Shown piece by piece: positions 6,299 through 57,700 of a DNA stretch of 64,000 nucleotides. The notes below the pieces were generated by a model. That model made no database searches, had not been told where the DNA came from, and saw only the letters and a list, made by a program, of their open reading frames with translations. The stretch is from NCBI RefSeq assembly GCF_910596095.1, contig NC_056538.1:21810501-21874500 (forward strand). The letters run 5' to 3'. The position numbers were made by a program, and so were the translations under genes. The first letter of the stretch is position 1. Every line of letters begins with the position of its first letter. The DNA comes from Thunnus maccoyii (Eukaryota > Chordata > Actinopteri > Scombriformes > Scombridae).

Positions 6299-9200
6299 AT
6301 GGGGGCATTTCCTAATGTATTTTTGCTGTTGTATGTCTACCTGATCTTGATTTTATTGTCTTACTCCTGTTTCTTTACAGAGTCTTCCTCTCTTTTCTCA
6401 TCTTGTAAATTAAGGAGACAGTTTTATCTTAATGGGATGCACAAGCCTGGTGATGTGATTCTGGGTGGGCTGTTTGAAGTCCACTACACCTCTGTCTTCC
6501 CTGAGCTGACATTTACCTCAGAGCCACATCAGCTCACCTGTCAAGGGTAAGTCTCACACATATGCAGCAGACAGCATAAATCTGTGCAGATTGATGTATT
6601 GTGTATATTATTTTTTAGTAGTGATTGTGACATTTTATGTTAGGTTTGACCCTCCCGGGTTCAGGCATGCTATGACCATGGCCTTTGCTATTGATGAGAT
6701 CAACAGAAACTCCAACCTGCTACCTAATGTGACTCTAGGATACAGTCTTTATGACAACTGTGCCACACTTGTAATTGGATTCAGCGCTGCTTTGTCACTG
6801 GCCAGTGGTCGAGAGGAGCAGTTTCTGCTTCAGGAGACCTGTTTTGGGACCCCTCCAGTACTGGGGATTGTGGGTGATTCTTTTTCAACATTTTCTATCG
6901 CCACCTCTGATGTGATAGGTTTATTCAAATTGCCCATTGTAAGTTTCCTGTCTTCAATCTGTACTTTTGATGTGCTGTAATTTAGAATGATAGTATAGGA
7001 AAAGCATCCACACATGATGCTTTTTTACAGATTTATTGAATCTGCTTCTCCAACAAGCCTTTATTTGGTAAGCAGTGATTGTTTTATGTTTGATACTAAA
7101 ATGATAGGGTAAAATCATTTGAATGTAACACATAACCTGTTTGCATTATTATTATTCTTTATACTGTAGGTGAGTTATTTTGCCACATGTTCCTGCCTGA
7201 GTGATCGGCAACGGTTCCCCTCCTTCTTTAGAACAATCCCAAGTGATGCATTCCAGGTGAAACTGTAAAATAACAAATGCAAAATCTGTTTCACAAGAAG
7301 TATAGTGGGCTTCAAAATATGCCACCCTCCAACAAAACTAATTTTTTGTCTTATGCAGAAAAGTACTGTATTTGATTTGTGCACCATTGATAAAACTATA
7401 TGCATTTAGATGAAACAGCATAATGACATCAATCAACTCTCACCAAAAGAATATTCCAGACTATACATTAATCCCTCCTCTCTGTATTCAAATAGGTGCG
7501 AGCTATGATTCAGATTCTAAAGCGCTTCAGCTGGACCTGGGCAGGTCTGCTGGTCAGTGATGATGACTATGGACTCCATGTTGCCCGATCCTTTCAATCT
7601 GACCTTGCTGAGTCTGGTGGGAGTTGTCTGGCCTACTTGGAGATTTTGCCCTGGGGTGACAACCCAGCTGAACTCAGGAGGATTGTGGAAGTGATGAAGA
7701 AATCCACAGCTCGTGTGGTCATCGTGTTTGCACATCAGATCCATATGATTCAACTAATGGAAGAGGTGGGGATTCAGATCTCTCTATCTCCTGACTTCAT
7801 CATAAGTTAAACAATGATGACTTGTTCAAATGTAATAACACCGAACTTCCCTTTGTATGAAAAGCAGTGCTTATTGATTATTAATTGATTATTGGAATTG
7901 CATCTTAAGAGCTGGTGTAACACACTTGGTATCAAGACCTGTATCCTGAAATAAGCTGTTCTATATGTTATCTAGCAATATTAACTGTAACTCAGCTGTT
8001 TCTGACCATAGATTTGAGTGCACACCCCACTTTAAATCTATGACTTATCTCTTAATAATTTAATTACGTTGGCATGAGCTTTATAGTTTTGGTTCCATAT
8101 TTTAAATAAATAATATGTAATTGATATGTATTTAATATAATTCAATACACAGGTGGTAAAGCAGAATGTAACAGGCCTGCAGTGGCTCGCCAGTGAAGCC
8201 TGGACAGCAGCTGCTGTGCTGCAGACACCCCACCTCATGCCATACCTGGGTGGCACATTGGGAATTGCCATTCGAAGAGGAGAAATACCAGGCCTCAGGG
8301 ATTTCCTACTAACAATACGTCCTGAGCTACACCACAACAACAGCAATGGAAATAACATGGTGAGAGTTTAACCTTGCAATCAGATCTGTATTCCAATAAT
8401 AAAATGTTCTGTTAATAAAATGTTAACATTTTATTGTACATTACATACATTTCAGGTGAGGCAGTTTTGGGAACATACATTTCTGTGTAGATTTGCACCA
8501 CCTCCAGCAGATTGGGTAGAAGCTGGGGGAGCACTATGCACTGGAGATGAAGACATAGAGAATGTGGAGACTGAGTTTTTGGATGTATCCAACCTCAGAC
8601 CTGAGTACAATATTTACAAGGCAGTGTATGCTCTAGCATATGCCCTTGATGACATGCTGCAGTGTGTGCCAGGCAGAGGGCCTTTCAGCGGGCGCAGCTG
8701 TGCCACTCTACAAAAACTGGAGCCATGGCAGGTGTGATATCAATTTACATTCAACCTGTTTATGTTTTAAAAAGAGCTGCTACACCTTGGGTTACTGTAC
8801 TTACTGTAATAGATTTCCATTAGAAAATATGTTTGGGCAAAGACATTTTTAATGATTACATCAGTAGCTTGGTTTTGAACTCCTGGTTTTCTCAGAGTAG
8901 AAGACAAACCTTTAATCATAGAAGCCACAAGAGAAAAGAATAACAAGAGCCCATATATCAATGTTTTAGTACACCGCATTTAAACGTTAGTATGACTAAT
9001 TCCAGCAAACCTGTCAAACAGAACCTCTGAAAGCATATGTACAATCAAGAACAGTACTTTTTTCTGATGGAGTCCCCCCTTTCACACTATTTATGTGTTG
9101 TTTATTTATCTGATCCTGCCATAGCTTATGTATTACTTGGAAAAGGTCAACTTTACCACATCATTTGGTGATCAAGTGTCATTTGATGAGAATGGTGATG

Positions 9201-10945
9201 CCTTACCAATCTATGATATCATGAATTGGCTGTGGCTCCCTGATGGACGAACAAAAATTCAGAGTGTGGGTGTGGTTAAGAAGTCAGCCTTCAAAGGTGA
9301 AGAGCTCAAACTGGATGAGGACAGAATCTACTGGAACTTTGACTCCAAACAGGTTACTTCTGTTTATTGTTGTTTCTGCCATAGTAATGCATACAATAAC
9401 AGCATCAAATGGTGTAGAATAATAGCAGCAGAACTCTTATCCCCTTTAGCCACCCAGGTCAGTTTGCAGTGAGAGCTGCCCCCCGGGTACCCGCAATGCC
9501 AGAAAGAAGGGGCAGCCTGTGTGCTGTTTTGACTGCATCCCTTGTTCTGAGGGAAAGATCAGCAATGAAACAGGTTGGTATCCTTTATAAACCTATGTGA
9601 TGTATCATGGATTATGAATTGCATCACTTAATCTTCCCCTTAGGCACCCAGGTGGTGTAGGTGAAAAAGCAAATGTCCACTGCCTCAGAATCCCAAGTAC
9701 AATTCCTGTCATCAATGTGCCATGAAACATAACTGTCAGTGTTCACGGTTGGGATGGACAATGTCATTGTTGCTGCACAAGCAACAACTATTGTTGTCAG
9801 GGTGGCTGTGTGGAGGGAATATGCATGAACTTAACATAATATGTTATATAATATGAACATAATATGTTTATTATGCCCATCTGTCTATACTCTCCCCAGG
9901 CTGGGAGTAGAAGTTAGTAGTGACAAGGGCCACAAAAATTGGAAAATTGGCCATGCAAAATTGTGAGAAAAGTATAAAAAAAAGTACATAAAAAAATGCA
10001 GTAATAAAGACAATCTACCCCTTTTTCATAGATTCCATGGAGTGCAAAAGTTGTCCGGAGGATTTCTGGTCCAGCCCCCAGCGTGACCATTGTGTTCCTA
10101 AGAAAACAGAGTTCCTCTCCTACCATGAGCCCCTGGGTATCTGTTTGACAACAGCCTCATTGCTGGGCACATTTATCTGTGCTTTTGTCCTGGCGATCTT
10201 CATCTATCATCGCAGCACACCTATGGTACGCGCCAACAATTCAGAACTGAGTTTCCTGCTTCTAATCTCACTTAAACTATGTTTTCTGTGTTCACTACTG
10301 TTCATCGGCCGTCCCAGACTATGGACATGCCAACTGAGACATGCAGCATTTGGGATCAGCTTTGTTCTTTGTGTCTCATGCATCCTGGTTAAAACAATGG
10401 TTGTTGTGGCTGTTTTCAAGGTCTCTAGACCAGGAGGTGGAGCCAGTCTGAAATGGTTTGGTGCTGTGCAGCAGAGAGGGACAGTTCTGGTTCTTACATC
10501 TGTCCAAGCAGCAATCTGCACTGCTTGGCTTGTAACTTCCTCACCAACTCCTCATAAAAACAATCAATATCACAATGACAAGATAGTGTATGAGTGTGTA
10601 GTCGGGTCTACAATTTGGTTTGCAGTGTTACTTGGTTATATTGGCATACTGGCAATCCTTAGCTTCCTGCTAGCATTTCTGGCAAGGAATCTTCCAGACA
10701 ACTTCAATGAAGCTAAGTTCATCACTTTCAGCATGCTGATCTTCTGTGCAGTGTGGGTGGCCTTTGTCCCTGCTTATGTCAACTCACCAGGCAAATATGC
10801 AGATGCAGTGGAGGTATTTGCCATCCTGGCCTCCAGTTTTGGTCTCTTAGTGGCATTGTTCGGACCCAAATGTTACATAATCCTGTTGAGACCAGAGAGA
10901 AACACAAAGAAAGCACTCATGGGTCGAGGTACCACCAAGACATAA
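6299..10945 (+). CDS. Gene B, OlfC/V2R-like chemosensory receptor (type 1), 882 aa
   Basis: Exons: 6299-6546, 6644-6938, 7170-7256, 7496-7765, 8153-8359, 8456-8731, 9125-9352, 9450-9573, 10032-10945; all splice sites GT-AG and the frame stays open to TAA. Residues 1 to about 27 form a hydrophobic signal peptide. Residues to about 537 form the Venus-flytrap ligand domain, with SDDDYG at about 231 and SEAW with Glu315, equivalent to the CaSR amino-acid contact Glu297. Residues 538 to about 612 carry nine cysteines and the remainder the 7TM domain with [13 protein letters not shown]. Family members signal through G proteins in olfactory microvillous neurons and usually sense amino acids; the ligand here is unknown. 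The start was chosen because this ATG is conserved in every type 1 gene. The ligand-domain exon of CaSR/V2R is cut into four (87, 270, 207, 276 bp). AATAAA lies at 11081. Confidence 0.93.
9640..9800 (+). mobile_element. tRNA-derived SINE-like repeat in intron 8 of gene B
   Basis: The sequence GCACCCAGGTGGTGTAGG resembles the tRNA-like head of a fish SINE, followed by CAATGTCATTGTTGCTGC as in its body. A related copy sits at 18300-18455 in the same intron of gene C, and the window begins within the tail of gene A's copy. It is absent from the 68-72 bp equivalents in F, G and H, so it marks the A/B/C lineage. Confidence 0.5.
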
Positions 10946-14949: not shown

Positions 14950-17900
14950 ATGGGGGAATATTTGCTCTTGTGTATCTGTATGATCTTGATTTTGTCCTCT
15001 TCTTATTTTTTCTTGTCTGAATCTTCCTCTCTTTCCTCATCTTGTAAAATAAGGAGGCAGTTTAACCTTAATGGGATGCACAAGGTTGGGGATGTGATTC
15101 TGGGTGGGCTGTTTGAAGTCCACTATAGCTCTGTCTTCCCTGAGCTGACGTTCACCTCAGAGCCACATCAGCCCAGCTGCCAAGGGTAAGTCTCAAAATC
15201 ACACATTTAGATTATTAGAAATACTGTATTACAGTTTAGTGGTTAATAGTGACATTTTGTGTGTTAGTTTTGACCCTCCAGGGTTCAGGCATGCTATGAC
15301 CATGGCCTTTGCTATTGATGAGATAAACAGAAACTCCAGTCTGCTACCTAATGTGACTCTGGGATACAGTCTTTACGACAACTGTGCTACACTTGGTATT
15401 GGGTTCAGCGCTGCTTTGTCGCTGGCCAGTGGTCAAGAGGAGCAGTTCGCACTTCAGGAGACCTGTTTAGGGACTCCTCCAGTCCTGGGGATTGTGGGTG
15501 ATCCCTTCTCAACATTTTCCATTGCCACCTCCAATGTGCTAGGTTTATTCAAACTGCCCATTGTAAGTTTCCTGTCTTGAATTTCTTGTTTGCTTTTACA
15601 TATGCTGTATTTGACTATAAATTGTAAAAACAAGTTAAGTATTTGAAAAGTCTCTACTGATTTGCATGAGACACATAACCTATTTGCAGTATGTATTTTT
15701 CTTTATATTGTAGGTGAGTTATTTTGCCACATGTTCCTGCCTGAGTGATCGGCAACGTTTTCCATCCTTCTTTAGAACAATCCCAAGTGATGCTTTCCAG
15801 GTGAAACTCTGTTATAGAAATAAGACCTGCAAAATACTGTATGTCTTAATTAAGGTGTAACAAGCTTGAAAATATGTTTTCTAATCAAACACATCATTTG
15901 TGTATCATCATTTGTTTAGTGCGTCAATTTAACTATACAGTTTTATGAGAAAAAGCTTAATTGGATTAATGAACTATGATTCAATCGTGAGACTCGTATT
16001 GGAAAATTTACCCTAAAAGAATATTCCAGCCTGTACATTAATCCCTCCTCTCTCCAAATAGGTGCGTGCTATGATTCAGATTCTAAAGCACTTCAGCTGG
16101 ACCTGGGCAGGTCTGCTGGTCAGTGATGATGACTATGGACTCCATGTTGCCCGATCCTTCCAATCTGACCTGGCTCAGTCTGGTGGAGGTTGTCTGGCCT
16201 ATTTGGAGGTTTTGCCCTGGGGCAATGACCCAAAGCAATACACAAGGATTGTGGATATAATGAAAAAATCCACAGCTCGAGTGGTCATTGTTTTTGCACA
16301 TCAGATGCACATGGTTCAAATCATGGAAGAGGTTAGAGGATTAACATAAATTGCTATCTATGAATCTATAACAGGAAATTTATTTATTTGCCTCTTATTA
16401 ATTGATCAAAATTGCATAAAAATAGTAATGTGAATTATTTGGAATTGGGATTTGAAAAAATTGGTGTGGCAAAACTACAAACTCTTACCCATAATAATCT
16501 GATGCAACAGTTATGCTCCTCCAGTCTTTGTACCTGTATTCTACATTCACTAATACTATATGATATCTAAGTTTTGCTTCTATTCCTGTGACTGATCTGT
16601 TTTTAAGATAGATTGAAATTTGGAAACTGTAATTTAAATGAATGGCCTTTCTCTTAGTAATTTAATTACATCTGTTCTTCTCACTATCACTAAATGAATC
16701 AGCTATACTAGAGAGGTATTGTGTAGTTTTGTTGTTATTTAGTTCATCTTAGAAAGTAGACTGTAATTTTTTCACAGAAATCTATATAATGCATTGCACA
16801 GGTGGTGAAGCAGAATGTGACAGGCCTGCAATGGATTGCCAGTGAAGCCTGGACATTAGTTGATGGACTCCAGACTCCTGCCTTCATGCCGTACCTGGTC
16901 GGCACACTAGGAATAGCTATCCGTCATGGACACATATCTGGGCTTAGGGATTTCCTATTAAAAATTCATCCTAACCGACACCACAACAGTGAAAACAGCA
17001 TGGTGAGACTTTAAACTTACAATCTGATGAGAAATTGCAAGAATAATATATTGTCTTTTTTTAAAGGCATTTTTAATGCATTTCAGGTGAGGCAGTTTTG
17101 GGAACATACATTTCAGTGTAGATTTGCACCACCTCCAGCAGATTGGGTGGAAGCTGGGGGAGCACTATGCACTGGAGATGAGGACCTAGAGAATGTGGAG
17201 ATTGAGTTTTGGGATGTAACCAACCTCAGACCTGAGTACAATATTTACAAGGCTGTGTATGCCCTAGCATATGCCCTTGATGACATGCTGCAGTGTGTGC
17301 CAGGCAGAGGGCCTTTCAGCGAGCACAGCTGTGCCACTTTACAAAGACTGGAGCCATGGCAGGTGTGATATCAATTTACACTCCACCTGTTTATGTTTTA
17401 AAAACAGCTGCTACACCTAAAGGTACTTACTGAATACATTTTTGTGTAGAATATATGAAAAAAGACGATATGCACTACTGATATCAGTTCGCCAGCAATT
17501 ATTTTGTTTTTTGTTTTTTGTTTTTTTATGAGGGGGAAGGGGGCAATTAAAGAAAATATTAATTCCCAGAAAGAGAAAGGAGAAATAAATTGTCTTTTTT
17601 GTATGTTTTGAAGGTGATAATTATCCTTTGGTAATAGACTGATGAAACAAAACAATCGGATTTAGAAACTTTACATTTTTATGCTGTTTTCAGTAGGATG
17701 ACTAAATCCAGCAAACCTTGCACACAGATCCTCTACCCAATCAAGAACATTGTACATTGTAAGAATGTTGTTAAATTTATCTCTCTCTTTTGTAGCTTAT
17801 GTATTATTTGGAAAAAGTCAACTTCACTACACCATTTGGTGATCAAGTGTCATTTGATGAGAATGGTGATGCCTTGCCAATCTATGATATTATGAACTGG

Positions 17901-21300: not shown

Positions 21301-24300
21301 ATGTTAAACAATATGACTCCACTTGCCATATTTCCCTTGATTTCCTCTGTATGGGTCCTCACTTCAACTTATGCCCCAATTTCCATCTTCACCTCTCTAT
21401 CCCCATCTGCAGCCAAAGTGTGCACTCTTCAAAACAGCTTTGAGCCAGGCTTTGTGGCAGAGGGTGACTATGTTATCGGGGGAATCTTCCCCCTTCACTA
21501 TATCCAGGAGATGCCAGACCTCAACTGCACCTACAGACCACCGCCAGTGAAGTGCAACGGGTGAGTTTAATGGTTTGGATTTAACTTGCTATATTCAGTT
21601 TGATGCTGTGTGATTTTGTCTCAAAAAACATGTTGTGACATTTTATTCCATCAGTTATGCAGGTTATAATTACATTCACCAGATTTTAGAATGCAGTAAT
21701 AATTTAACCTGACACAAAATAAGATAGTCTTTTATACACTGATGCACTTTTGTGCAGGTCAGGTCAAGTTTGAGTAAGATATTTAGGTTTTAGCAAATAA
21801 AGTTCCAGAGAGAAAAGGTGTGTCTGTAATTCCCAAATCATTTCTAAATAAATTCCAAAATGTTTCCTGAAAAGTACTGCATGTGCTCTAAGAAACCAAC
21901 CAGAGAAAAGAAAAAATTAAGAAAGAAAATTATTATTCATTTTTCAGTTAAAAACATATTTTCTGAGACAGTTGTCAATCATTGGAAATGTTATTCATCT
22001 ATGCTGAATTTGTATGTATGTTTGTGTACAAATTTTACATTTTGCATGTTTGGCTGACCTGGTGGTGGAAATTGTTGGATAATTAGGAACCTGAAAAATA
22101 AAGTGTTACCAAAGACACATATCTTGTTTACAAAAAAGGATGAGAAAGTAAAATATCTTAGATGCATAAAGATGACTAACTTTTACCTTTAAATTTGACC
22201 TTTTCTCCATCTTTGCTGTGTTCAATGTGTGTGTCTGCTGAGATACAGCTTTGATCCTAGGGCTTTCCGCTGGGCTCAGACTATGAGGCTGGCAGTGGAG
22301 GAGATAAACCAGAGTATGGAGCTGTTGCCCAATTACACCCTTGGCTACAAAATCTTTGATTCATGTGCACATCCGCTGACCGGCCAGAGGGCTGCTCTGG
22401 CTGTGTTGAACGGTTTGAGCGAGGACTACTCTCCCATGTGCAGAGGTGCCTCTCCACTCCTTGCTGTGATCGGGGATTCTGGTTCTGCCCAGTCCATCGT
22501 GATATCAAGAATGCTGCAGCCGTTCAGAATCCCAATGGTTAGTTAGGATGATTATGTTCTGTTATAATACCCCAAAAACATGTGTTCTCAAAATATTACC
22601 CTTTAATCTGTTCTTTATTTTCCCTTTGTAACCCAGATCAGCTACTTCTCAACATGTTCATGTTTCGCTGACAGAATAAAATATCCCAACTTCTTCAGAG
22701 TAATCCCTAATGATGACTATCAGGTGAGGGTTTGGCTTTTAGATTATAAGGGTTTTGATGATTTTCAGTGCTGCATCAATATGAAGACATTTTTGAAAAC
22801 ATCATATGTTTCTATGATGATGTCCAGTATTGTCCTGTGAAAACCTTGTGGCTCTTAAACTCAAGTTAAAACAATTCTTTACTAACACGAATGCTGTGTT
22901 TTTATCTGGATGGCAAATGATTGTAAAATTATTTCAACCAACAGAGATGCAGATTACCACCAAAAATAGTTTTACAAAGCTTTCACCTGGCAGTGATGAT
23001 ATATTATATTATTTTGCAGTGCTAGACAAAACCAAGAGCCAGTACATATTTAAAAAAAAAAAAAAAAAACTTTAATGTTTTGTTTGATGTTAGTTTACTT
23101 TGTTTTATTTTGTTTTGTTTCCTGATCCTAGGTGAAGGCCATTGCCCAGCTGCTGGTACGCTTCAACTGGACTTGGGTGGGGCTGATGCGAGGGGACACT
23201 GACTACGGGCGCTTTGCTATGCGAGGTTTACTGAGAGAACTACAGAGAACCAAAGTGTGTGTAGCATACCAAGAAATGATCCCTCTGCGCTACAATCGCC
23301 AGAGGGTTCAGGAGATCTTGCAGGTAGACACAAATACACACTAAATTTGAGTGTTACAGACAAAAGAGAGTTTTTATTTTACCTCAAGACATCTTATAGT
23401 AGACGCTGATGACAAATCAATCCCATTAAAGCCCCTGTGTAAATGGTGCTTGTGTGATTATAACACATTTTAAATGATTTTGATGGTATAAGCTTTTGTC
23501 TGTAAAATGTGACAATCTTGGGTTAGGTTTGACTAGACTTAGTTTTAACTTTCTTTCTTTTGCTTCTTTTTCTTTTCTCTCCTCCTTGTGAAACTCTTTC
23601 CTCCTTCATCATCTGTAAAGGTAATGCGTAGCTCTACGGCAAAAGTGGTGGTGCTATTTTCAAATGAGGGGGAGATGACACCTTTCTTGAGGGACTACAT
23701 GATGCAGAACATTACTGGAATCCAGTGGGTGGCTAGCGAGGCCTGGGTCACAGCATCTGTCTTTACAGGGAGCGAGTATTACCCCTACCTGGGGGGCACT
23801 ATTGGGTTTGGCATCAGAAAAGGTCATATCTCCAAACTCGGTGACTACCTGCTGACAGTAAACCCTCAGATGTATCCCAATAATCCACTGGTGCAGGAGC
23901 TGTGGGAGGCTCTGTACGGTTGCAGTCCTTCTCTGTCCTCTAGTTCCCGGTTGCCTCCCTGCTCAGGGCAGGAGTCCCTGTTGGATCAGCATTCAGCTTA
24001 CATGAATACATCCAGTCTAAGAGTTGCCTATAATGTCTATAAGGCTGTATATGCAATTGCTCATTCCCTGCACAACCTACTACTCTGTCAACCAGACCAA
24101 GGGCCTTTCCTCAACAACTCATGTGCACAAAGCAACAACATACAACCCTGGCAGGTATTGTCTAGTATTCTTATTGATTATTGCACTGTAAATCTTGCTT
24201 GAGTATTTCATATTATTTATTGTCTTTCAAGCTCCAACACTACCTCCAGGAAGTGACGTTCAGCATTGCTGGGGAGGAGGTGAACTTTGACCTGAAGGGT

Positions 24301-27211: not shown

Positions 27212-27745
27212 GTGGTGAAGCAGAATGTTACAAGCCACCAGTGGATTGCAAGTGAAGCCTGGACAGCAACTACTGCGCTCCAGTCCCACGACCTCATGCC
27301 ATGCCTGGGCGGCACACTGAGCATCGCCATTCATCGAGGAGAAATACCAGGCCTTTCAGAATACATCCTGACCTGCACTAGAACAACACCTGTGAAAATA
27401 ACATAGTGATGGCCTTTTTCTTTATCTCACTGCCTGATCAGAACTGACTTGTCACATTATCATCATTATTCTAATCTTGGTTTTCTTGCCGCAAGTGAGG
27501 CAGTTTTGGGAGTACATATTTCAATGTAGATTTGCGCCACCTCCAGCACTATGCACTGGACAGGATAGTCTAGAGAATGTGGAGACTGACATTTGGATGT
27601 GTCTAACCTCAGGCCCGAGTACATTATTTACAAGCCCGTGTATGCTCTGGCGTATGCCCTTGATGACATGCTGCACTGTGTGCCAGGGAGAGGGCCTTTC
27701 AGCAGGCACAGCTGTGGCAGTTTGCAAAAATTGGAGCCATGGCAG
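27212..27745 (+). pseudogene. Relic of a type 1 OlfC receptor, two ligand-domain exons
   Basis: Pseudo-exon 27212-27405 corresponds to type 1 exon 5. It keeps the CACAG acceptor and reads [17 protein letters not shown], but a deletion after EIPGL shifts the frame. Pseudo-exon 27495-27745 corresponds to exon 6: [18 protein letters not shown] is followed by a small deletion and a frameshift, its acceptor AG|G has lost a base, and its donor has changed from GT to AT after GCCATGGCAG. No other exons of this gene were found in the surrounding 3 kb. It shows that a type 1 gene once stood between the two type 2 genes. Confidence 0.85.
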
Positions 27746-30601: not shown

Positions 30602-33600
30602 ATGTTTAGCAATATGATTCCACTTGCCTTATTTCCCTTGATTTACTCTGTCTGGGTCCTCACTTTAACTTATGCCCCAATTTCCATCTTCACCTCTCTA
30701 TCCCCATCTGCAGCCAAAGTGTGCACTCTTCAAAACAGCTTTGAGCCAGGCTTTGTGGCAGAGGGTGACTATGTTATCGGGGGAATCTTCCCCCTTCACT
30801 ATATCCAGGAGATGCCAGACCTCAACTGCACCTACAGACCACTGCCAGTGAAATGCTATGGGTGAGTTTAATAGGTTTGAATTTAACTTACTATATTCAG
30901 CTGGATGCTGTGTGATTTTGTCTCAAAAAACATGTTGTGACATTTTTATTCTATCAAATGGATTATGAGTCCTTATACAAACAAACTCTAAAAACTCTGG
31001 ACAAAAAGCTAATGCATTTCCGTCACTGTAGGGTACTGGAGAAATACAATTTACCAGCCTTGAGAATTTTAGATTATTCTCAAATTTGTGCCTAGTTTAT
31101 AAAATTTTAAATGGTTTGGCTCCTCCTCCACTATGTGACTTTGTGTACACTCACTTAGTAAGCTCTATTAGATCCTCCAGAATATCCTCTATACAAGATT
31201 GTACCATACCATTTCGTCGCACTGCATTTGAACAGTCAGCTTTCTCTGTGAACACCACAACTCAGTGGAATGCCCTACCTGATGATATGAAGAACTGCAG
31301 TTCAATCAATACATTCAAGGCCAAATTAAAAAATCTACTAAAGACCAGCTCTGTGGCCACTGAGTCTAAACTTCATCTATGGTCTTCTTATTAGCGCAGG
31401 TAGTCTTGCTTTTAATTCGACAAGTTTACATTATTCATTTCTAATTGACATTGTGGTTGTCTGTAATTCCCAAATCATTTCTAAATAATTTCCAAAATGT
31501 TTCCTGAAAATTACTGCATGTGCTCCAAAAAACCAATCAGAGAAAAGACATTAAATTATTATTCATTTTTCATTTAAAAACATATTTTCTGAGACAGTTG
31601 TCAATCATTGGAAATGTTATTCATTTATGCTGAATTTGTATGTATGTTTGTATACAAATTTTACATTTTGCATGTTTAGCTGGCGTGGTGATGGAAATTG
31701 TTGGATAATTAGGAACCTGAAAAATAAAAATCAATGTGTGTGTGGTGTGTGCATATGTGTCTGCTGAGGTGCAGCTTTGATCCTAGGGCTTTCCGCTGGG
31801 CTCAGACTATGAGGCTGGCAGTGGAGGAGATAAACCAGAATATGGAGCTGTTGCCCAATTACACCCTTGGCTACAAAATCCTTGATTCATGTGCACATCC
31901 GCTGACCGGCCAGAGGGCTGCTCTGGCTGTGTTGAACGGTTTGAGCGAGGACCACTCTCCCATGTGCAGAGGTGCCTCTCCACTCCTTGCTGTGATCGGG
32001 GATTCTGGTTCTGCCCAGTCCATCGTGATATCAAGAATGCTGCAGCCGTTCAGAATCCCAATGGTTAGTTAGGGTGATTATGTTCTGTTATAATACCCCA
32101 AAAACATGTGTTCTCAAAATATTACCCTTTAATCTGTTCTTTATTATCCCTTTGTAACCCAGATCAGCTACTTCTCAACATGTTCATGTTTCGCTGACAG
32201 AATAAAATATCCCAACTTCTTCAGAGTAATCCCTAATGATGACTATCAGGTGAGGGTTTGGCTTTTAGATTATAAGGGTTTTGATGATTTTCAGTGCTGC
32301 ATCAATATGAAGACATTTTTGAAAACATCATATGTTTCTATGATGATGTCCAGTATTGTCCTGTGAAAACCTTGTGGCTCTTAAACTCAAGTTAAAACAA
32401 TTCTTTACTAACACGAATGCTGTGTTTTTATCTGGATGGCAAATGATTGTAAAATTATTTCAACCAACAGAGATGCAGATTACCACCAAAAATAGTTTTA
32501 CAAAGCTTTCACCTGGCAGTGATGATATATTATATTATTTTGCAGTGCTAGACAAAACCAAGAGCCAGTACATATTTAAAAAAAAAAAAAAAATTAAAAA
32601 AATTAATGGTTTGTTTGATATCAGTTTACTTTGTTTTATTTTGTTTTGTTTCCTGATCCTAGGTGAAGGCCATTGCCCAGCTGCTGGTCCGCTTCAACTG
32701 GACTTGGGTGGGGCTGGTGCGAGGGGACACTGATTATGGGCGCTTTGCTATGCGAGGTTTACTGAGAGAACTACAGAGAACCAAAGTGTGTGTAGCATAC
32801 CAAGAAATGATCCCTCTGCGCTACGATCGCCAGAGGGTTCAGGAGATCTTGCAGGTAGACACAAATACACACTAAATTTGAGTGTTACAGACAAAAGAGA
32901 GTTTTTATTTTACCTCAAGACATCTTATAGTAGACGCTGATGACAAATCAATCCCATTAAAGCCCCTGTGTGAATAGTGTTTACGTGATTATAGCATGTT
33001 TTAAGTGATTTTGATGGTATGAGCTGTCTGTAAAATGAGACAATCTTGGGTTAGGTTTGACTAGACTTAGTTTTAACCTGCTTTCTTTTGCTTCTTTTTC
33101 TTTTCTCTCTTCCTTGTGAAAATTAATTATCTGTAAAGGTAATGCGTAGCTCCTTGGCAAAAGTGGTGGTGCTCTTTTCAACCGAGGGGGAGATGACACC
33201 TTTCTTGAGGGACTACATGACGCAGAACATTACTGGAATCCAGTGGGTGGCTAGCGAGGCCTGGGTCACAGCATCTGTCTTTACAGGGAGCGAGTATTAC
33301 CCCTACCTGGAGGGCACTATTGGGTTTGGCATTAGAAAAGGTCATATCTCCAAACTCGGTGACTACCTGCTGACAGTAAACCCTCAGATGTATCCCAATA
33401 ATCCACTGGTGCAGGAGCTGTGGGAGGCTCTGTACGGTTGCAGTCCTTCTCTGTCCTCTAGTTCCCGGTTGCCTCCCTGCTCAGGGCAGGAGTCCCTGTT
33501 GGATCAGCATTCAGCTTACATGAATACATCCAGTCTTAGAGTTGCCTATAATGTCTATAAGGCTGTATATGCAATTGCTCATTCCCTGCACAACCTACTA

Positions 33601-36058
33601 CTCTGTCAACCAGACCAAGGGCCTTTCCTCAACAACTCATGTGCACAAAGCAACAACATACAACCCTGGCAGGTATTGTCTAGTATTCTTATTGATTATT
33701 GCACTGTAAATCTTGCTTGAGTATTTCATATTATTTATTGTCTTTCAAGCTCCAACACTACCTCCAGGAAGTGACGTTCAGCATTGCTGGGGAGGAGGTG
33801 AACTTTGACCTGAAGGGTGATTCCACACCCTATTATGATATCATCAACTGGCAGAGAGGCACAGGTGGTAACATTGAGTTTGTCAACGTGGGGTTGTTTG
33901 ATAGAACAAAGCCTGCCGGAGAGGAGCTGGTGATCCAGGAGGACAGGATAGTGTGGGCAGGTCATCAGAATGAGGCAAGCTGCTCATACTGTGTTTTTAC
34001 CTTCATCACATACCAACATTGCTGAAGCTCTGTAGTTTGAGGTGGAGGCAAGTCAAGTGCAAGGGACAAGCTGGCCATGAGTTTGTTTGCATGTATAATA
34101 GAGATGCAAACACCCATCATATGACCCGTCTTGTGTTTTAATGCGTCCTGATGTATTCCTATGGCTAAATTCTTATAAAATATAAGCTAAGATGTTAGTA
34201 ATGTTTCATTTGTATGCTGACTGTATTCAAATGAAACATTGCATTCCAAACACACAGGCACAAAAGCATGCTTTCATGTTATGGCCATTTTTTGAAACAG
34301 CAATGGGTGAATATTCTGCAGCCACAATTGTTCCCATTATTGTTATGTTACATGCATTTTATATAAATGTCATAGAGCTATTTGTTGTTTAATTGAATGA
34401 CAGATTGTTACATAGCTTATAAAAAAAATAATTTTAACCAGCCCTGAGTGTGAAAATCTCTGTTAAGCTTCTCCGCCATTCTCTTGCTGGGTGCATTTTC
34501 TGACTAAAGCATTCAGGAACATGTATAGGCCACAACTAATTATTATTTTTACTGTGTATTAACCAGCTGTGGATTGTTTGGTCTATAAAATGTCAGAAAA
34601 TGGAAAAATGCACATCACAACCTCCTAGAATCTAAAGTTTGTTATATCCAAAATTCAGACATTGAATTTACAGAGGTAAAACAGAGAAAACCAGCAAATC
34701 ATCACATTTTAGAAGCTGGAACCTGGAAATATTGATGTTTTTCATGATAAATGGCTTGAAAAATATGTTTTCTTTTTTTCTGTAAATAGACTAATAAATT
34801 ATTGTAAATAACTAATAATTAAAATAACTAATCATTTTGGCACACTAATTTGACACTGCAGAGCTGAAAGACACTATTGTCTGTGTGCTCCTTAGGTGCC
34901 GGTGTCTGTATGCAGTGCCAGCTGTCTTCCAGGGTCCCGGAAGGCTGTCCGTCGTGGGGAGCCTGTCTGCTGCTTTGACTGTGTACCATGTGACAGTGGC
35001 AAAATTAGCAATCAGACAAGTGAGCTTTCAACCAAGCAATAAAGATAACAATTAATATCTAATATATTTTATTGAAATCAGGTGATATTTGAATATGGAA
35101 TTGTTTTAAATAAACTATTCCTTTGTATTTCTTTTAAACATTTTCTTACTCTTTAGATTCCATAGAGTGCACATTTTGTCCTGAGGACTTCTGGTCAAAC
35201 AAAGACAGAACAGCCTGCATCCCAAAGAAAGTGGAGTTCTTGGCCTATGATTCCTTGGGTATAGCCCTAACAGTGATCTCTGTTGTGGGTGCCTGTCTTA
35301 CTATAGCGGTCCTTGCAGTCTTCTTCCATCACAGAAACACAGCCATAGTCCGTGTGAATAACTCTGAACTCAGCTTCTTCATCCTGTTTGCGCTGACTCT
35401 GTGTTTCCTGTGTTCTCTTGTGTTCATTGGAGAGCCAACAGCTTGGTCCTGCATGCTGCGCCACACAGCCTTCAGCATCACATTTTCACTTTGCATCTCC
35501 TGCATACTGGGGAAGACTCTGGTGGTGTTGGCTGCTTTCACTGCCACCAGGCCAGGAAACAACATTATGAAGTGGCTGGGGCCCAAACAGCAGAGGGCCA
35601 TTATCTTTAGCTGCACTCTGATTCAGGTGATTATTTGTGCTGCCTGGCTCATTGATGCTCCCCCTTACCCATCCCGAAATACACAATATGAACGTTCAAA
35701 AATCATACTTGAGTGTAGTGTGGGCTCTAGCCTTGCATTCTGGTGCGTTCTGGGATATATTGGTCTGCAGGCCTGTCTGTGCTTCATTCTGACCTTTCTA
35801 GCCCGAAAGTTGCCGGAGAAGTTCAATGAGGCCAAGTTTATCACCTTCAGCATGTTGATCTTCTGTGCTGTGTGGCTTGCATTCATCCCTGCTTATATCA
35901 GCTCTCCTGGAAATTATGCAGATGCAGTGGAGTCATTTGCCATTCTGGCCTCCAGCTTTGGCTTGTTGTCCTGTCTGTTCGCTCCAAAGTGTTATATTAT
36001 TTTACTGAAGCCTGAAAAGAATACAAAACAGCATCTAATGGGAAAAGAAAAGAAGTGA
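30602..36058 (+). CDS. Gene E, OlfC/V2R-like chemosensory receptor (type 2), 870 aa
   Basis: Exons: 30602-30861, 31775-32063, 32163-32249, 32663-32854, 33139-33672, 33750-33974, 34896-35019, 35157-36058; the frame is open to TGA. This is a recent tandem copy of gene D: every exon has the same length, introns align closely, and I count about 22 amino-acid differences in 870. The same GC donor (GAG|GCAAGC after 33974) is kept. Notable changes are YLGGTIG to YLEGTIG in the ligand domain, and LPGNFNEAK to LPEKFNEAK in the third intracellular loop. The Asn lost in the second is kept in every other receptor here and in CaSR. Eight of the differences lie in exon 1, mostly in the signal peptide. Intron 1 carries a LINE fragment that gene D lacks. 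AATAAA lies at about 36274. Confidence 0.92.
30953..31450 (+). mobile_element. LINE 3' fragment in intron 1 of gene E
   Basis: 31086-31394 reads [18 protein letters not shown], then [17 protein letters not shown] and [11 protein letters not shown]. This is the C-terminal tail typical of fish LINE reverse transcriptases. Intron 1 of gene D has about 170 bp of unrelated sequence at this position (21650-21820), so the insertion came with a loss, or D lost it. Confidence 0.65.
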
Positions 36059-36484
36059 TATCCCTGAAGCTAACCTTGTAAAAATGCATTTCTATTCAAT
36101 ATTCAATGATGTTTAAAAATAAATGTTGATTTAGTTCACATTTGTATAGACTGGACAGTGACAGTTGTATACAACTGATATTGCAGCATTACAAATGGAA
36201 ATAAAAAGGGAAATATATAGGTATATATACAATGACCTTATTACTCTAATGTACTCATAGATATTTTAAAAAAATAAACATATGAAGTGCTGAAAATTCT
36301 TTGAAGATTCTGAGACCCAGTTTGTTGGGAAAAGACTTTCTGTTGATCTTCTATCCTGCTACAACCATGAGCTCCATTTTTTATCAATTCAAAGTTAATT
36401 TTACACACTAGACAAGAAAATTTGTATTAATTTAATAATTAGTGATTACATAATGTGAGCTATTGTAATGCAACATGTTCAGGC
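36059..36484. other. 3' flank of gene E
   Basis: It matches the 3' flank of gene D (26543-27025) with several small deletions. The homology, and with it the duplicated unit, ends near 36484. Confidence 0.6.
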
Positions 36485-38610: not shown

Positions 38611-41600
38611 ATGGGGGCTTTTTTTGACACACATTTGTTCTTGTGTGTCTACTTGATCTTGATTTTTTTCTCTTCCTCTTCTTTATTATCTGTGTTTTCC
38701 TCTCCTTCCTTATCTTGTAAATTATGGAGACAGTTTCATCTTAATGGGATGCACAAGCCTGGTGATGTGATTCTGGGTGGGCTGTTTGAAGTCCACTACA
38801 CCTCTGTCTTCCCTGATTGGACATTTAGCTCAGAGCCACGTCAGCCCAGCTGCCAAGGGTAAGTCTAACATACATACAGCAGACAACACAGATATGTGCA
38901 AATTATTCTGTTCTGCTCAGAGTATTCACGGCAAGGAAAAAAATGTCACTGTACTGAAATTCTTATGAAATGTAAATAATATATGTTTTCATGACAGTCA
39001 TTGTGATAGTTTTAAAAGATTAAATTACAACTGTAAAAATATGTCATTATAGCTGTATAATCTGTAATCAACATCAGTCCTCACAATGACATATTAATTT
39101 TTAGACATTAATACTGACATTTTGTGTTATAGATTTGACACTCTAGGGTTCAGACATGCTCAGACCATGGCCTTTGCTATTGATGAGATCAACAGAAACT
39201 CCAACCTGCTACCTAATGTGACTCTGGGATACAGTCTTTATGACAACTGTGGTGCACTTGTTATTGGATTCAGTGGTGCATTATCACTTGCCAGTGGCCG
39301 AGAGGAGCAGTTTCAGCTTCAGGAGAACTGTTTAGGGACCCCTCCAGTCCTGGGGATTGTGGGTGATTCCTTCTCAACATTTACTATCGCCGCCTCCAAT
39401 GTCTTAGGTTTATACAAAATGCCCATGGTAAGTTTCCTGTCTATTATCTCTTTTGTTGTTGTATTTTTAATGTTCTGTATTTGAATTAATTTCTTTTTTG
39501 AATGAGCATTGTTAAAATACACAAATATTTTGTCTGGGTCTGACTTGCATGAGAAGAGTTACTTGTGTGCATTCTGTATGTTTCTTTATAGGTGAGTTAT
39601 TTTGCCACATGTTCCTGCCTGAGTGATCGGCAACGATTTCCATCCTTCTTTAGAACGATCCCAAGTGATGCTTTTCAGGTGAAACCCTGTTAGCAAAATT
39701 GAGAACTACAAAATATGTTTCACAGGCAGTGCAGCAAGCTCATAAAAACAGGTCCCTAATAACAGAAATCTTTTGTTTTCTCTGAAGGAAATTAATTAAC
39801 TGTGATTGCATTGTGAAATTCATATAATAATATAATGTATTACAAATACAAGTTGCAGTTGTATTTGTTATTTTAAAAGAATATACTTGTCTGTGCACTA
39901 ATCCCTCCTCTCAATATATCCACTTAGGTGCGTGCTATGATTCAGATTCTAAAACGCTTCCGCTGGACTTGGGTGGGTCTGCTGGTCACCAGTGATGATT
40001 ATGGACTCCATGTTGCCCAGTCCTTCCAGTCTGACCTGGCTCAATCTGGTGGAGGTTGTTTGGCCTACCTAGAGGTTTTGCCCTGGGACAGTGACCCAAA
40101 TGAACTTAGGAAGATTGTACATTCGATAAAGACATCAACAGCCCGTGTTGTCATGGTGTTTGCACATGAAGGCCACATGATTCCGTTGATGGAAGAGGTT
40201 GGCATTAATATATAATCCATGTTTTTTAGGAAACATAACATGATGAATCATTATGCTCGTTTGTTTGTCTAAACCAAAAGTGACTGACCAAATTCCTGAT
40301 TATCATCATTTTCTATGAATTAAAACAATCTACAACTCAAGTTTCAGATCCAGTTGATTGTCATTGGGTCAAATTCTTTGACAATGTTTGATAATGTTAA
40401 CTGTATACTGTATATGTCAAAATTTTGACCTGTAGAAGATTCAGCTAGATAAAATAATTACTTTAAATATTTGAATATATTTGTGGATTTCCATCAGTGT
40501 GTAGGTATCAAAGGGCTGTTTTCCAACAATGGCAGGCATAATAAAATTGTTCTAATAATAAGATTAAATCGATCAGGTTACAAAATGAGCTTCAGCCTTG
40601 CATTTTACTCATGTTATTATAACTTCTCTCTTTTAACATAAAATGCAGCATGCAGACCCTACATTAAACTGAGATCCTATCTCTTAAAAATGAACTAATA
40701 TCTGTGATTATATGACTAAAGCCGGACAATAGAATTGTGGTAGACAAATTATTTGTTTCAAGGTACACTGTATTTTTCTGAATATATAATATTATATTTG
40801 ATATAATGCATTGCACAGGTGGTGAGGCAGAATGTGACAGGCCTGCAGTGGATTGCCAGTGAAGCCTGGACAGCAGCTGCTGTGCTGCAAACACCCCGAC
40901 TCATGCCGTACCTAGGTGGCACACTGGGCATTGCCATCCGTCGAGGAGAATTACCAGGCTTCAGGGATTTCCTATTAAGAATACGTCCTGGCCAACATGA
41001 CAGCAATAATTATGAAAATAGCATAGTGAGAGATTAAGCTTACAATTTTATCTGAAATTGCAGGAATAAAATATTTTAATTTCTGTTAATACTGTCTTGG
41101 ATACATTTCAGGTAAACCAGTTTTGGGAAGACACATTTCAGTGCAGATTTGCACCACCTCCAGCAGGATGGATGGAATCTGGGGGAGCACCATGCACTGG
41201 AGATGAGGACCTAGAGAATGTGGATACTGAGTTTTTGGATCTTTCTAATCTCAGGCCTGAGTATAATGTGTACAAGGCTGTGTATGCTCTGGCGTACGCC
41301 CTCGATGACATGCTGCAGTGTGTGCCAGGCAGAGGGCCTTTCAGTGGGCACAGCTGTGCCACTTTGCAAAGACTGGAGCCATGGCAGGTGTGATATCAAC
41401 TTACGCTTCACCTGTTAATGCTTTAAAACAGCTGCTACACCATGAGGTACTTACTGGTTGTAGTCTTGTGAGAACAGAATATTATGGAAAACAAGACACT
41501 ATTAATAATGATATTTATACTCTGGCTATTAATTTCATGATTTTCTTACAAAATTCTTTTAAATTTCAAATTTTATTTAATCAATTACTTAAGCCCAGCA

Positions 41601-49162: not shown

Positions 49163-52100
49163 ATGTGGGCATTTTTAGATTTACCCTTGCTCATGTACTT
49201 CATGTTATTGTCTTCATATGTTTCCTATGCTGTGTCTTCCCCTCTCTATTCCTCCTCCTGCCAGTTACAGGGACAGTTTCATCTCAATGGGATGCACAAG
49301 GCTGGAGATGTGGTGGTGGGTGGGCTGTTTCAAGTCCACTTCTTTTCTGTCTTTCCTGACCTGTCTTTTACCTCAGAGCCACAAGAGACTACCTGCCACG
49401 GGTGAGACTATTGGAGAAGCAGCAAAAAGCATAACCTTAGGGAAATCAATCCCATATTTGAATGTATTCTTGATCAACATATATTATATAGCGTAGTTAC
49501 ATTGTGCTTTTATACTCTTTCAAACATATTAATTTTTTTCAGTCTTTTTTCAGTTTAAGTATGATAATTATTGCTATTTAACTGACTTAATTGTTTACAA
49601 AACATGCTACTTATGCAACATGTACCTCTTTGTATAGATATTATATCATATTGTATTTTTTTAAATATACATTGTGTTATTTTTTATGTTAGTTTTGATG
49701 TTCTAGGATTCAGGCAGACCCAGACCATGGCCTTTGCTGTTAATGAGATCAACAGAAACTCCAACCTGCTGCCTAATGTGACTCTGGGATACAGTCTATA
49801 TGATAACTGTGTCAAACTAGGAATTGGATTCCGTGCAGCATTGTCTTTAGTTAGCGGTCAAGGGGAAGAATTTATTTTAGACAAGAGCTGTGTAGGAGCC
49901 CCTCCAGTCCTGGGGGTTGTGGGTGATTCTTCCTCTACACGTACTATTGCTATCTCCACTGTCTTAGGTTTGTACAGAGTGCCAATGGTAAGTTTTATGC
50001 CTTACATCTAATAATTTGTTTGGATGATTTTTATTGAATTTCAAAATTTATGTCAATTGTAAACATGGAATAATCAACCTTAAAAAGTTGAAAGAGCCAG
50101 TGAAGGCTTTGAATGTGTTTAGGATGTGCAGTCTTTGTCCTTCACAGGTGAGTTATTTTGCCACATGTTCCTGCCTGAGTGACCGGCAAAAGTTTCCATC
50201 CTTCTTTAGGACGATCCCAAGTGATGCTTTCCAGGTGAACATTTGTCAGCAAAATGAAAATAGATAAAATATATCATGTGCAGTTAGCATACCTGTATTG
50301 CAGTGACACAACTATTCCTCTTGTATATGACCAGTCACATTCTTTGTGTCATGAATGGAGGTGTATAGTCTCAGATAACAAAGCTGAAAGGCAATAGTTG
50401 AACCTGGTCCATTGTGGAATCTGTTTAGCAGGTTTTGCACTAAAATGATATTCCAGCCTGTACACTAATCCCTCCACTCTCTATTCAAATAGGTGCGTGC
50501 TATGATTCAGATTCTTAAACGGTTTGGCTGGACTTGGGCAGGTCTGTTAGTCAGTGATGATGACTATGGACTCCATGCTGCCCGATCCTTCCAATCTGAC
50601 CTGGCTCAGTCTGGTGGAGGTTGTCTAGCCTATTTGGAGGTTTTGCCCTGGGGCAATGACCCAGCTGAGCTGAACAGGATCGTGGATATAATGAAAAAAT
50701 CCACAGCTCGTGTGGTCATCGTATTTGCACATGAGAGTCACATGATTGGCCTCATGGAAGAGGTTTGAGATTTAATTAATTTCGATGAAATCTTTTCTTT
50801 TTCCTCTTGGCTAATTTGACCAACCAAGATCCTGTGAATTATCACCTAAATAGATATTCAAAAAGTAAAATAATATAAATAATAAAAGCAGCGATATTTG
50901 GTCAATTTGAAAGTTTTAAGTTAAAATAAAATGTTTGCCTATCTGCAACAAATAAATAATTAATTGATTAGGTCACACCTGTTGTTATTTGTTTAAGGTG
51001 CTGTTTATAGGGTTTTTGAGTGAGATCACTAAATTAGACAAATTATACTGAACTACATCACTTTGCTCACTATAAAAGTGAATACACAACATTCTGTGGA
51101 TTAATAAGAAAAGAAACAAACTATGTAAACTGCTTATAATTAAGAAGACTAGACAATACTTTAGAAGCATTGCAGTGTAACCTTATATATTTGGTATGAA
51201 TCCTTGCACAGGTGGTGAAGCAGAATGTGACAGGCCGTCAGTGGATTGCAAGTGAAGCCTGGACAGCAGCTGCTGTGCTTCAGACCCCTGACCTCATGCC
51301 GTACCTGGGTGGCACTCTGGGCATCGCCATCCGTCGCGGAGAAATACCAGGCCTCAGGGATTTCTTACTAAGAGTGCGTCCTGACCTACACCACAACAAC
51401 AGCTATGAAAATAACTTGGTGAGAGTTGAACCTTCTAATGTGGTATTTTCAAGAACAATATATTATCACTGTGTATAACACATAGTTTTGAATATATTTC
51501 AGGTAAATCAGTTTTGGGAACACACATTTCAGTGCAGATTTGCACCACCTCCAGCAGGTTGGGTGGGAGCACTATGCACAGGAGATGAGAACCTAGAGAA
51601 TGTGGAGACTGAGTTTTTGGATGTGTCTAACCTCAGGCCTGAGTACAATGTGTACAAGGCTGTGTATGCTCTGGCGTACGCCCTTGATGACATGCTGCAG
51701 TGTGTGCCAGAGAGAGGGCCTTTCAGCGGGCGCAGCTGTGCTTCTTTGCAAAGACTGGAGCCATGGCAGGTGTGATATCAATTTACACTTCACCTGTTTA
51801 TGCTTTAAAAGAGCTGCTACACCTTAAAGTAGTGAATGCAGTTGTCTGAGCATAGAATATTAGGGAAAACAAGACATGCAATAATGACATTTGTACATGG
51901 CTATTGATTTCATGATGTTCTTACAAAAAATTTTCAAAGTAAATTATTTAAACTCAGCAATAGATGAATAAAATGAATTCTTATTTTGTTTTGTGAGATG
52001 GTATTGAACCAATTAGAAAGGACAGCATCCTGAATTTCAGAGTGTCTCAATATATAAATAGTTGCTACGAGTCTGTCACACTCCTTATCTCCGCATTTGT

Positions 52101-54777: not shown

Positions 54778-57700
54778 ATGGGGGCTTTTCTTGACACACA
54801 TTTGTTCTTGTGTGTCTACTTGATCTTGATTTTTTTCTCTTCCTCTTCTTTATTATCTGTGTTTTCCTCTCCTTCCTTATCTTGTAAATTACGGAGACAG
54901 TTTCATCTTAATGGGATGCACAAGCCTGGTGATGTGATTCTGGGTGGGCTGTTTGAAGTCCACTACACCTCTGTCTTCCCTGAGTGGACATTTAGCTCAG
55001 AGCCACGTCAGCCCAGCTGCCAAGGGTAAGTCTCACATACATACAGCAGACAACACAGATATGTGCAAATTATTCTGTTCTGCTCAGAGTATTCACGGCA
55101 AGGAAAAAAATGTCACTGTGCTGAAATTCATATGAAATGTAAATAATATATGTTTTCATGATAGTCATTATGATAGTTTTAGAAGATTAAAATACAACTG
55201 TAAAAATATATCATTATAGCTGTATAATGTGTAATCAACACCAGTTCTCACAATGACATATTAATTTTTAGACATTAATACTGACATTTTGTGTTATAGA
55301 TTTGACACTCTAGGGTTCAGACATGCTCAGACCATGGCCTTTGCTATTGATGAGATCAACAGAAACTCCAACCTGCTACCTAATGTGACTCTGGGATACA
55401 GTCTTTATGACAACTGTGGTGCACTTGTTATTGGATTCAGTGGTGCGTTATCACTTGCCAGTGGCCGAGAGGAGCAGTTTCAGCTTCAGGAGAACTGTTT
55501 AGGGACCCCTCCAGTCCTGGGGATTGTGGGTGATTCCTCCTCAACATTTACTATCGCCGCCTCCAATGTGCTCAGTTTATACAAAATGCCCCTTGTAAGT
55601 TTCCTGTCTTTGTTATTGTATTTTAATTTACTGTATTTGAATTAGTTTTTTTTTTAGGCCAATGATACACATTGTTAAAATATATAAATATTTTGTCTGG
55701 GTCTGACTTGCATGAGATGAGTAACTTGTGTGCATTCTGTATGTTTCTTTATAGGTGAGTCATTTTGCCACATGTTCCTGCCTGAGTGATCGGCAAAAGT
55801 TTCCATCCTTCTTTAGAACGATCCCAAGTGATGCTTTTCAGGTGAAACCCTGTTAGCAAAATTGAGAAATATAATATTTGGTAACACTTTCTATGGCATC
55901 CATGTCTATAATGCATTATAAACACACTTATAATGCATTATAATCTGCTTATCGCACTGTATAATTATAGTTATAAGCACTCATATCACAAATATTTTTC
56001 ACAGGCAGTACAGCAAGCTCGTCAAAAAAGAGGTCCCTAATAACAGAAATCTTTTCTTTTCTCTTAATGAAATGAATTAACCGTGATTGCATTGTGAAAT
56101 TTATATTACAAAAATTTACGTAAGTTACAATAACTGAAGTTGTATTTGTTATTTTAAAAGAATATACTAGTCTGTGCACTAATCCCTCCTCTTAATATAT
56201 CCACTTAGGTGCGTGCTATGATTCAGATTCTAAAACGCTTCCACTGGACTTGGATGGGTCTGCTGGTCACCAGTGATGACTATGGACTCCATGCTGCCCA
56301 GTCATTCCAGTCTGACCTAGCTCAGTATGGTGGAGGTTGTTTGGCCTATCTAGAGGTTTTGCCCTGGGACAATGACCTAAGTGAACTTAGGAGGATTGTA
56401 CATTTAATAAAGACATCAACAGCTCGAGTTGTCATCGTGTTTGCACATGAGAGCCACATGATTCAACTAATGGAAGAGGTTGGAATTAATATATAATCCA
56501 TTATTTTGAGAAACATAACACGATGAATCATTATGCTCGTTTGTTCATTTGTTTGTCTAAATCAAAAATCGTTGATGAAATCAAATCAAATAAATTCTGA
56601 CATTTATCATAATTTTCTATGAACTAAAATAATCTACAACATCGAGTTTAAGATCCAGTTGGATTGTCATTAAGTCAAATTCTTTGACAATGTTTGATAA
56701 TATTACTCAATACAGTATATGTCATTATATTATATTATGACCTATATTTTGACCTGATTCAGATAGATGAAATAATTACTTTAAATGTTTGAATACATTT
56801 GTGAATTTCAATCAGTGGGCATACATCAAAGGGCTTTTTTCCAACAATGACAGGCATAATAAAATTGTTCTCATTATTAGATTAAATTGATCAGGTTACA
56901 AAATTAGAACATCTGTTGTAAATTCAGTCTTGCATCTACTCACTTTATTGTTACTACTGTTTTTTTTGTTGTCGTTTTTTTTACATAAAATGCAGCATGC
57001 AGACCCTACTTTAACCTGAGATCCTTTCTCTTGAAAATGAACTCATATCTGTGATTATATGACTAAAAAAGCCAGACAATGGAATTGTGGTAGACAAATT
57101 GTTTGTTTCAAGATGCACTGTTTCTTTTCCACAAGTCTGAAAATATGTTTTATATGATGCATTGTGCAGGTGGTGAGGCAGAATGTGACAGGCCTGCAGT
57201 GGATTGCCAGTGAAGCCTGGACAGCAGCTGCTTTGCTGCAGACCCCCCGACTCATGCCGTACCTGAGTGGCACACTGGGTATTGCCATCCGTCGAGGAGA
57301 AATACCAGGCCTCAGGGATTTCCTATTAAAAATACATCCTGACCTACATGACATCAACGATTATGAAAATAGCATGGTGAGAGTTTAAGGTTACAATTTT
57401 ATCTGAAATTGCAGGAATAAAATATTTAAATTTCTTTTCTTATAAAAACATTCCAGGTAAATCTGTTTTGGGAACACACATTTCAGTGCAGATTTGCACC
57501 ACCTCCAGCAGGTTGGGTGGGAGCACTATGCACTGGAGATGAGAATCTAGAGAATGTGGAGACTGAGATTTTGGATGTGTCTAACCTCAGGCCTGAGTAC
57601 AATGTGTACAAGGCTGTGTATGCTCTGGCGTATGCCCTTGATGACATGCTGCAGTGTGTGCCAGGCAGAGGGCCTTTCAGCGGGCGCAGCTGTGCCACTT

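Follow-up and report, generated by a model that had tools for sequence, protein, structure and literature searches.

Extra introns in the ligand-domain exon of tandem OlfC genes of Thunnus maccoyii and their probable gain after the split from CaSR

Five OlfC genes of Thunnus maccoyii (B, C, F, G and H, here called type 1) carry three extra introns, I1 to I3, within exon 3, and we consider it very likely that these are genuine spliceosomal introns gained after the split from CaSR. The window analysed, a stretch of 64,000 nucleotides (C6:21810501-21874500 of a 782-Mb genome), belongs to a cluster of tandem OlfC genes, which encode V2R-like class C GPCRs. The split found in it is part of a wider pattern at the scale of the cluster, which is not visible from the window alone. 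In the human CASR gene the same stretch of coding sequence is one exon (exon 4), and the canonical gene has six stereotyped exons separated by introns of phases 2,0,0,0,1.

The coding sequence equivalent to CaSR residues 165-459 is divided in the five type 1 genes into four exons of 87, 270, 201-207 and 267-276 bp (Table 1), giving nine coding exons rather than the six of canonical OlfC/V2R genes. The gene B segment (280 aa) aligned end to end with human CaSR 165-459, and on CaSR numbering the three introns lie at 193|194 (I1), 282|283 (I2) and 347|348 (I3). All 15 extra introns are GT-AG introns in phase 0 that are followed by a GTN codon, and the models of B, C, F, H and G otherwise fit the canonical phases (2,0,0,0,1). 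Gene B contains the Pfam domains ANF_receptor, NCD3G and 7tm_3, in that order. The initial annotation had described the four-exon split and the phase 0 introns in these five genes, and both were reproduced, the exon sizes and coordinates to the base. Its outer boundaries are canonical in general (the PWQ end of gene B is CaSR 459), but gene H reads L|VSHF rather than M/I|VSYF. The valine that it placed after each extra intron is present at all 15 sites of the five genes, but type 1 genes I and J, which lie mostly or wholly beyond the window, have Ile (ATA) after I3.

Separately from the split itself, the start of the intron that follows PWQ (about 8732-8830 of the window, and the corresponding stretch of C, F, G, H and a relic) looks unusually alike between paralogues, a likeness that may reflect constraint or conversion.

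Table 1. Positions in the window of the split exon 3 and related features (all on the + strand)
Feature	Position	Strand	Remarks
Gene B, complete, 9 coding exons	6299..10945	+	Pfam ANF_receptor, NCD3G, 7tm_3
Gene B exon 3a, 87 bp, CaSR 165-193	7170..7256	+	S170 (Thr here) and D190 positions
Gene B extra intron I1, 239 bp, phase 0	7257..7495	+	CAG^GTG; CaSR 193|194; in-frame stops
Gene B exon 3b, 270 bp	7496..7765	+	Y218 equivalent
Gene B extra intron I2, 387 bp, phase 0	7766..8152	+	GAG^GTG; CaSR 282|283
Gene B exon 3c, 207 bp	8153..8359	+	E297 equivalent
Gene B extra intron I3, 96 bp, phase 0	8360..8455	+	ATG^GTG; CaSR 347|348
Gene B exon 3d, 276 bp	8456..8731	+	End PWQ = CaSR 459
Gene C exons 3a-3d	15714..17362	+	I1 15801-16061, I2 16332-16801, I3 17003-17086
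Type 2 gene D exon 3, three parts (87/192/534)	22637..24154	+	I1 and I4; without I2, I3
Decayed type 1 fragment	27212..27745	+	I2 acceptor kept; I3 relic, acceptor AG now AA; exon 3d in two frames
Type 2 gene E exon 3	32163..33672	+	Structure as in D
Gene F exons 3a-3d	39592..41387	+	I1 39679-39927, I2 40198-40818, I3 41026-41111
Gene G exons 3a-3d	50148..51769	+	I1 50235-50492, I2 50763-51211, I3 51419-51502
Gene G parentage switch, support interval	51495..51802	+	Best estimate 51510-51514, just inside exon 3d
Gene H exons 3a-3d	55755..57723	+	I1 55842-56208, I2 56479-57169, I3 57377-57456

A region of 255 kb around the window was surveyed (its overlap with the window was verified) with a spliced protein-to-DNA aligner that we wrote and that recovered the introns of gene C from the gene B protein. 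Exon 3 was found at 35 loci, 31 of which were modelled; the other four were dropped as pseudogenes or fragments (21725190, 21790395, 21837709 and 21892616), and the 31-gene set omits at least one further gene, seen as a search match at about C6:21926460-21929391. The modelled genes comprise nine of type 1 (T1, with I1, I2 and I3), three of type 2 (T2, with I1 and a further intron, I4), 11 that are unsplit (U1-U11) and eight with other extra introns (X1-X8). The three type 1 positions are identical in all nine type 1 genes, in which I3 measures 80-105 bp, so the type 1 split is more than a chance feature of individual genes.

In type 2, genes D and E have I1 in common with type 1 and are without I2 and I3; a fourth intron, I4, is their own (CaSR 257|258, CAG^GTA, phase 0). 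They are 94-100% identical to one another segment by segment, and the intron after exon 4 is GC-AG (GAG|gcaagc) in both (D, 22200-26542; E, 31730-36058). At 36460-36921 of the window, on the minus strand, and upstream of gene E there are open frames with phrases that we take to be typical of LINE reverse-transcriptase C-termini.

The three extra introns had been put forward as a trait of type 1 receptors, which holds for I3, found in type 1 only, but not for the other two: I1 is common to type 1, type 2 (D and E) and X2, and the I2 position is used again in the distant gene X4. The type 1 split therefore did not arise as one event. I4 is confined to type 2. The 7TM exon is also affected, being split in seven of the eight X genes (X1-X4 and X6-X8; C6:21.67-21.92 Mb) with the same Gln|Val site among the split positions every time; across the 31 genes, introns of this exon lie at alignment column 159 after Gln (CAG^GTN; the main site) in seven, at column 65 in four and at column 188 in one.

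Altogether 66 extra introns were modelled at 20 positions in exons 3 and 6 of the 31 genes, a count that leaves out possible others in further exons of the X genes; the place of the third exon 3 intron of X2 differs between two alignments and is uncertain. In-frame stops are present in 61 of them and one shifts the frame (62 of 66 with a stop or shift). The four that are open and in frame (in X4, X6, X7 and X8, at two positions in a variable loop) are possibly coding loop and were set aside, leaving a conservative count of 18 distinct positions spread over 20 of the 31 genes.

These four open segments, and the fact that splicing is predicted here from sequence alone, are what could be said for a reading in which the apparent introns are never removed, being coding insertions or parts of pseudogenes. 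We hold that reading to be extremely improbable. Read-through of each of the 15 type 1 introns of the window meets at least one in-frame stop, and the flanking frame is intact: the spliced coding sequences are unbroken with a single terminal stop (883 codons in B, 876 in C, 882 in F, 879 in H and 866 in G, stop included) and predict intact proteins of 865-882 aa. Purifying selection is evident in all four small exons and all ten pairs of the five genes, with dN/dS below 1 throughout (0-0.45 in 3a, 0.15-0.34 in 3b, 0.15-0.69 in 3c and 0.16-0.43 in 3d). In the same ten pairs exons 3a-3d are 77-97% identical, compared with 46-74% for I1-I3 in nine pairs and 86-88% in the pair F/H.

The amino-acid pocket of CaSR, which we take to involve positions S170, D190, Y218 and E297, is represented by T, D, Y and E, located in exons 3a, 3a, 3b and 3c, respectively. 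Splicing of the pre-mRNA would leave the class C receptor unchanged, its Venus flytrap pocket being of the amino-acid type, so the extra introns are probably neutral to protein function.

The interpretation of the extra introns as gains had been proposed from the window alone, and comparison with relatives in the same genome makes it the better-supported reading, with 11 of the 31 OlfC genes of the cluster and the CaSR orthologue unsplit. This orthologue (C13:20175237-20176076), 71% identical to human CaSR over the stretch, lacks I1-I3 and does not share the four-exon split; its 7TM exon is unsplit as well. Two further class C genes (on C17 and C10) are uninterrupted over 732 and 768 bp of the stretch. 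An independent search of the genome gave uninterrupted matches covering residues 1-278/280 at eight OlfC places and CaSR, and residues 1-258/259 in the other three unsplit genes. These counts do not include the fragmentary class C matches at other places of the genome, such as C5:19.07 Mb, C3 and C4. Relatives were also sought in viral contigs and none was found.

From exon 2 on, the unsplit genes have only the four canonical introns, with phases 0,0,0,1; the phases after exon 2 are the same in every U and X gene (19 in total) and in T2a, T1z and T1J. An origin of the unsplit genes as retrogenes is ruled out because the canonical introns from exon 2 on are all kept in 11 of 11. U10, whose model ends at 737, has one TAG and is probably a pseudogene in its last exon. 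Before tree building, terminal introns that had been modelled spuriously in U1 and U5 were removed, and later models of both genes are without them.

One class C gene stands apart from the cluster, a singleton at C6:11.88 Mb (C6:11876501-11884500; L042) in which exon 3 and the 7TM exon are each in several pieces, and which may be an OlfC gene outside the cluster. It lacks I1-I4; one of its exon 3 positions is shared with X1, and the main 7TM position is shared in one of two alignments. A few of the intron positions of the cluster may therefore predate the cluster.

As an alternative, the introns could already have been present in the ancestor of OlfC, with losses in zebrafish, in CaSR and in the unsplit genes. 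What speaks for this is that distant paralogues share some positions: X2 has I1, X4 uses the I2 position, and the main 7TM site is occupied in seven of 31 genes and perhaps in the singleton. The history of that 7TM site is indeed shortest with one gain and one loss. As a general account we nevertheless regard ancestry followed by loss as improbable. It would have to explain the CaSR orthologue and 11 cluster genes that are without any extra intron of exons 3 and 6, the 11 having retained the canonical ones, whereas one gain with no loss suffices for 17 of the 20 positions, including I3 and I4. A uniform count of six coding exons is also reported for zebrafish OlfC (PMC1764893).

Gain of the introns within OlfC is thus the reading that we followed in reconstructing their history, with gains dated against paralogues and CaSR of the same genome only. 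On a CaSR-rooted tree, parsimony required 23 changes for the full set of positions and 21 after two positions had been set aside. I3 and I4 take one gain each, and I1, I2 and the main 7TM site two changes each; for I1 and I2, a single older gain with two and three losses, respectively, is only slightly less parsimonious. Support for the key nodes is weak (71% for T1+T2, 57% for U+T and 54% for another), and with several deep nodes at 54-71% parallel gains are likely, not proven. When the I1 of X2 and the I2 of X4 were compared with the introns that types 1 and 2 have at these sites, no match was significant (best E 0.31); for introns of such age the comparison is uninformative.

In the history that we favour, I1 would have been gained in the ancestor shared by types 1 and 2, and the X2 lineage would have acquired it either separately or through an earlier gain; I2 and I3 would have been added on the type 1 stem, with I2 arising separately in X4, and I4 on the type 2 stem. 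Insertion would have been precise, without loss of codons, mostly between codons and mostly at G|GT or AG|GT sites. Consistent with this, 15 of the 18 extra positions are in phase 0. In at least one gene, GT follows the intron at 11 positions and AG precedes it at 11, against a background of 5-7% each; the AG count is partly circular, since the donor matrix of the aligner favours AG before an intron; GT after the intron carries no score.

Homologues that lack a given intron have ^GT in 24 of 27 cases at 7TM column 65 and in 9 of 23 at I3, and AG^GT in 10 of 24 at 7TM column 159. At I1 the idea of a pre-existing site is unsupported, AG^GT being found in 0 of 19 unsplit homologues and ^GT in three. 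Overall, the sites agree with the MAG^N proto-splice pattern reported for intron gains in serpin genes (PMC2746811). The valine that follows the introns was considered as a special signal and rejected; it follows from insertion at proto-splice sites that resemble G|GT, and at I3 genes I and J carry isoleucine. Valine also follows the canonical exon 2/3 junction, before VSYF.

Sites of the form AG|GT are equally what would be predicted if the introns arose by tandem duplication of AGGT-containing pieces of exon, or as copies of a mobile intron-forming element. Such copying would be expected to leave similarity behind, which was not seen: the ends of the 19 window introns did not resemble their flanking exons (38 comparisons, lowest p 0.06), and no window intron matched the window outside its own homologues at E<=1e-3 when sites I4 and I2 were kept apart. 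A laxer search of the 19 introns against one another gave two weak pairs of 22-24 bases between different sites. The traces could have decayed, the introns being old, and we consider an origin by either of these routes unlikely, although less so than an ancestral presence of the introns.

The four small exons of type 1 are all symmetric (0-0) and, standing in a tandem array, could offer points of exchange between paralogues. Gene G (49193-53579) is a natural chimera, I/J-like in its 5′ part and F/H-like in its 3′ part, with the switch near the border of intron 3 and exon 3d. Compared with gene I (C6:21874216-21877596) and gene H, it has 326 informative sites for I and 40 for H from exon 2 to I3, and 152 for H and 30 for I between exon 3d and the last intron; when J and F take the place of I and H, the counts are 333 versus 29 in the 5′ part and 102 versus 38 in the 3′ part. 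I3 adjoins the exchange point, and the break itself is not placed inside I3.

Another reading of this arrangement is that the splitting is adaptive, the short symmetric exons being kept for exchange between tandem receptors or for exon skipping. Besides the symmetry and the switch in G, a contrast between genes B and C may be cited for it: their fourfold sites differ at 10 of 24 in exon 3c and at 3 of 36 in 3d (Fisher p 0.0035), the sole pair of ten below 0.05.

Several details of gene G run counter to it. The switch fits best just inside exon 3d and not in the intron, an I-like patch follows at 51711-51782, and in exon 6 neither parent is clear (41 versus 31 informative sites). Breakpoint scans of six triples with G placed the break at I3 or its edge in three, and in exon 3c, I2 and I1 in one each; in four triples without G the breaks lay elsewhere. 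Trees of the two halves, built without I and J, both keep G beside F+H, the main difference being the length of the G branch (0.457 versus 0.048). Gene conversion among OlfC genes is also reported in catfish (PMC6588630), so extra introns need not be required for exchange. We therefore find an adaptive origin of the splitting decidedly unlikely, slightly more so than an origin by duplication or element copying. The preferred account remains one of introns that are probably neutral, whose small symmetric exons would provide exchange points, near one of which gene G switches.

Extra introns in a class C chemoreceptor have a precedent. In zebrafish, every full-length gene of the same receptor family, OlfC, reportedly comprises six coding exons, the phases being strictly conserved (PMC1764893), as against nine coding exons in type 1 here. 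The premise that gene structure in this family is usually fixed thus stands for zebrafish, but not for the present genome, with its approximately 18 extra positions. The nearest parallel is TAS1R3B of ray-finned fishes, in which an acquired intron splits exon 3 and a further intron was gained in exon 6 (PMC10781636); that case concerns two gains in one gene, compared with about 18 positions in 20 of 31 tandem OlfC genes.

Intron gains described in serpin genes (PMC2746811) are similar in that the introns are GT-AG, measure 68-178 bp, lie at MAG^N sites, fall between codons in five of seven cases and are absent in zebrafish; they differ in belonging to another family and in comprising seven introns in five genes, with no tandem array or chimeras described in the available text. 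Another fish olfactory receptor family is likewise reported to have gained introns, but there one to three introns entered genes that were ancestrally intronless. Introners are a known route to many new introns (PMC9860276), whereas the window introns have no repeated intron sequence. Our searches of the open-access literature brought up no description of additional introns in exon 3 of OlfC genes.

The split genes may have practical consequences for gene counts. One mining pipeline is described as discarding EXONERATE models whose exons outnumber the tblastn hits separated by at least 100 bp (PMC10869828); as I3 measures 80-105 bp in the nine type 1 genes, genes of this kind could be mis-modelled.

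Vertebrates are considered to gain introns rarely, by a mechanism that is not settled (PMC2746811). We suggest, tentatively and as a possibility that we would not yet favour, that the OlfC clusters of this fish lineage are a hotspot of vertebrate intron gain, with about twenty gains in one family and one cluster and some proto-splice sites hit twice in separate paralogues, and that the new introns then served as junctions for ligand-domain exchange, giving rise to chimeric receptors. A single tandem cluster that holds unsplit genes together with several partly shared split states, alongside CaSR as an outgroup, forms a compact natural series in which gains could be ordered and dated and in which proto-splice insertion could be tested against parallel gain or loss.
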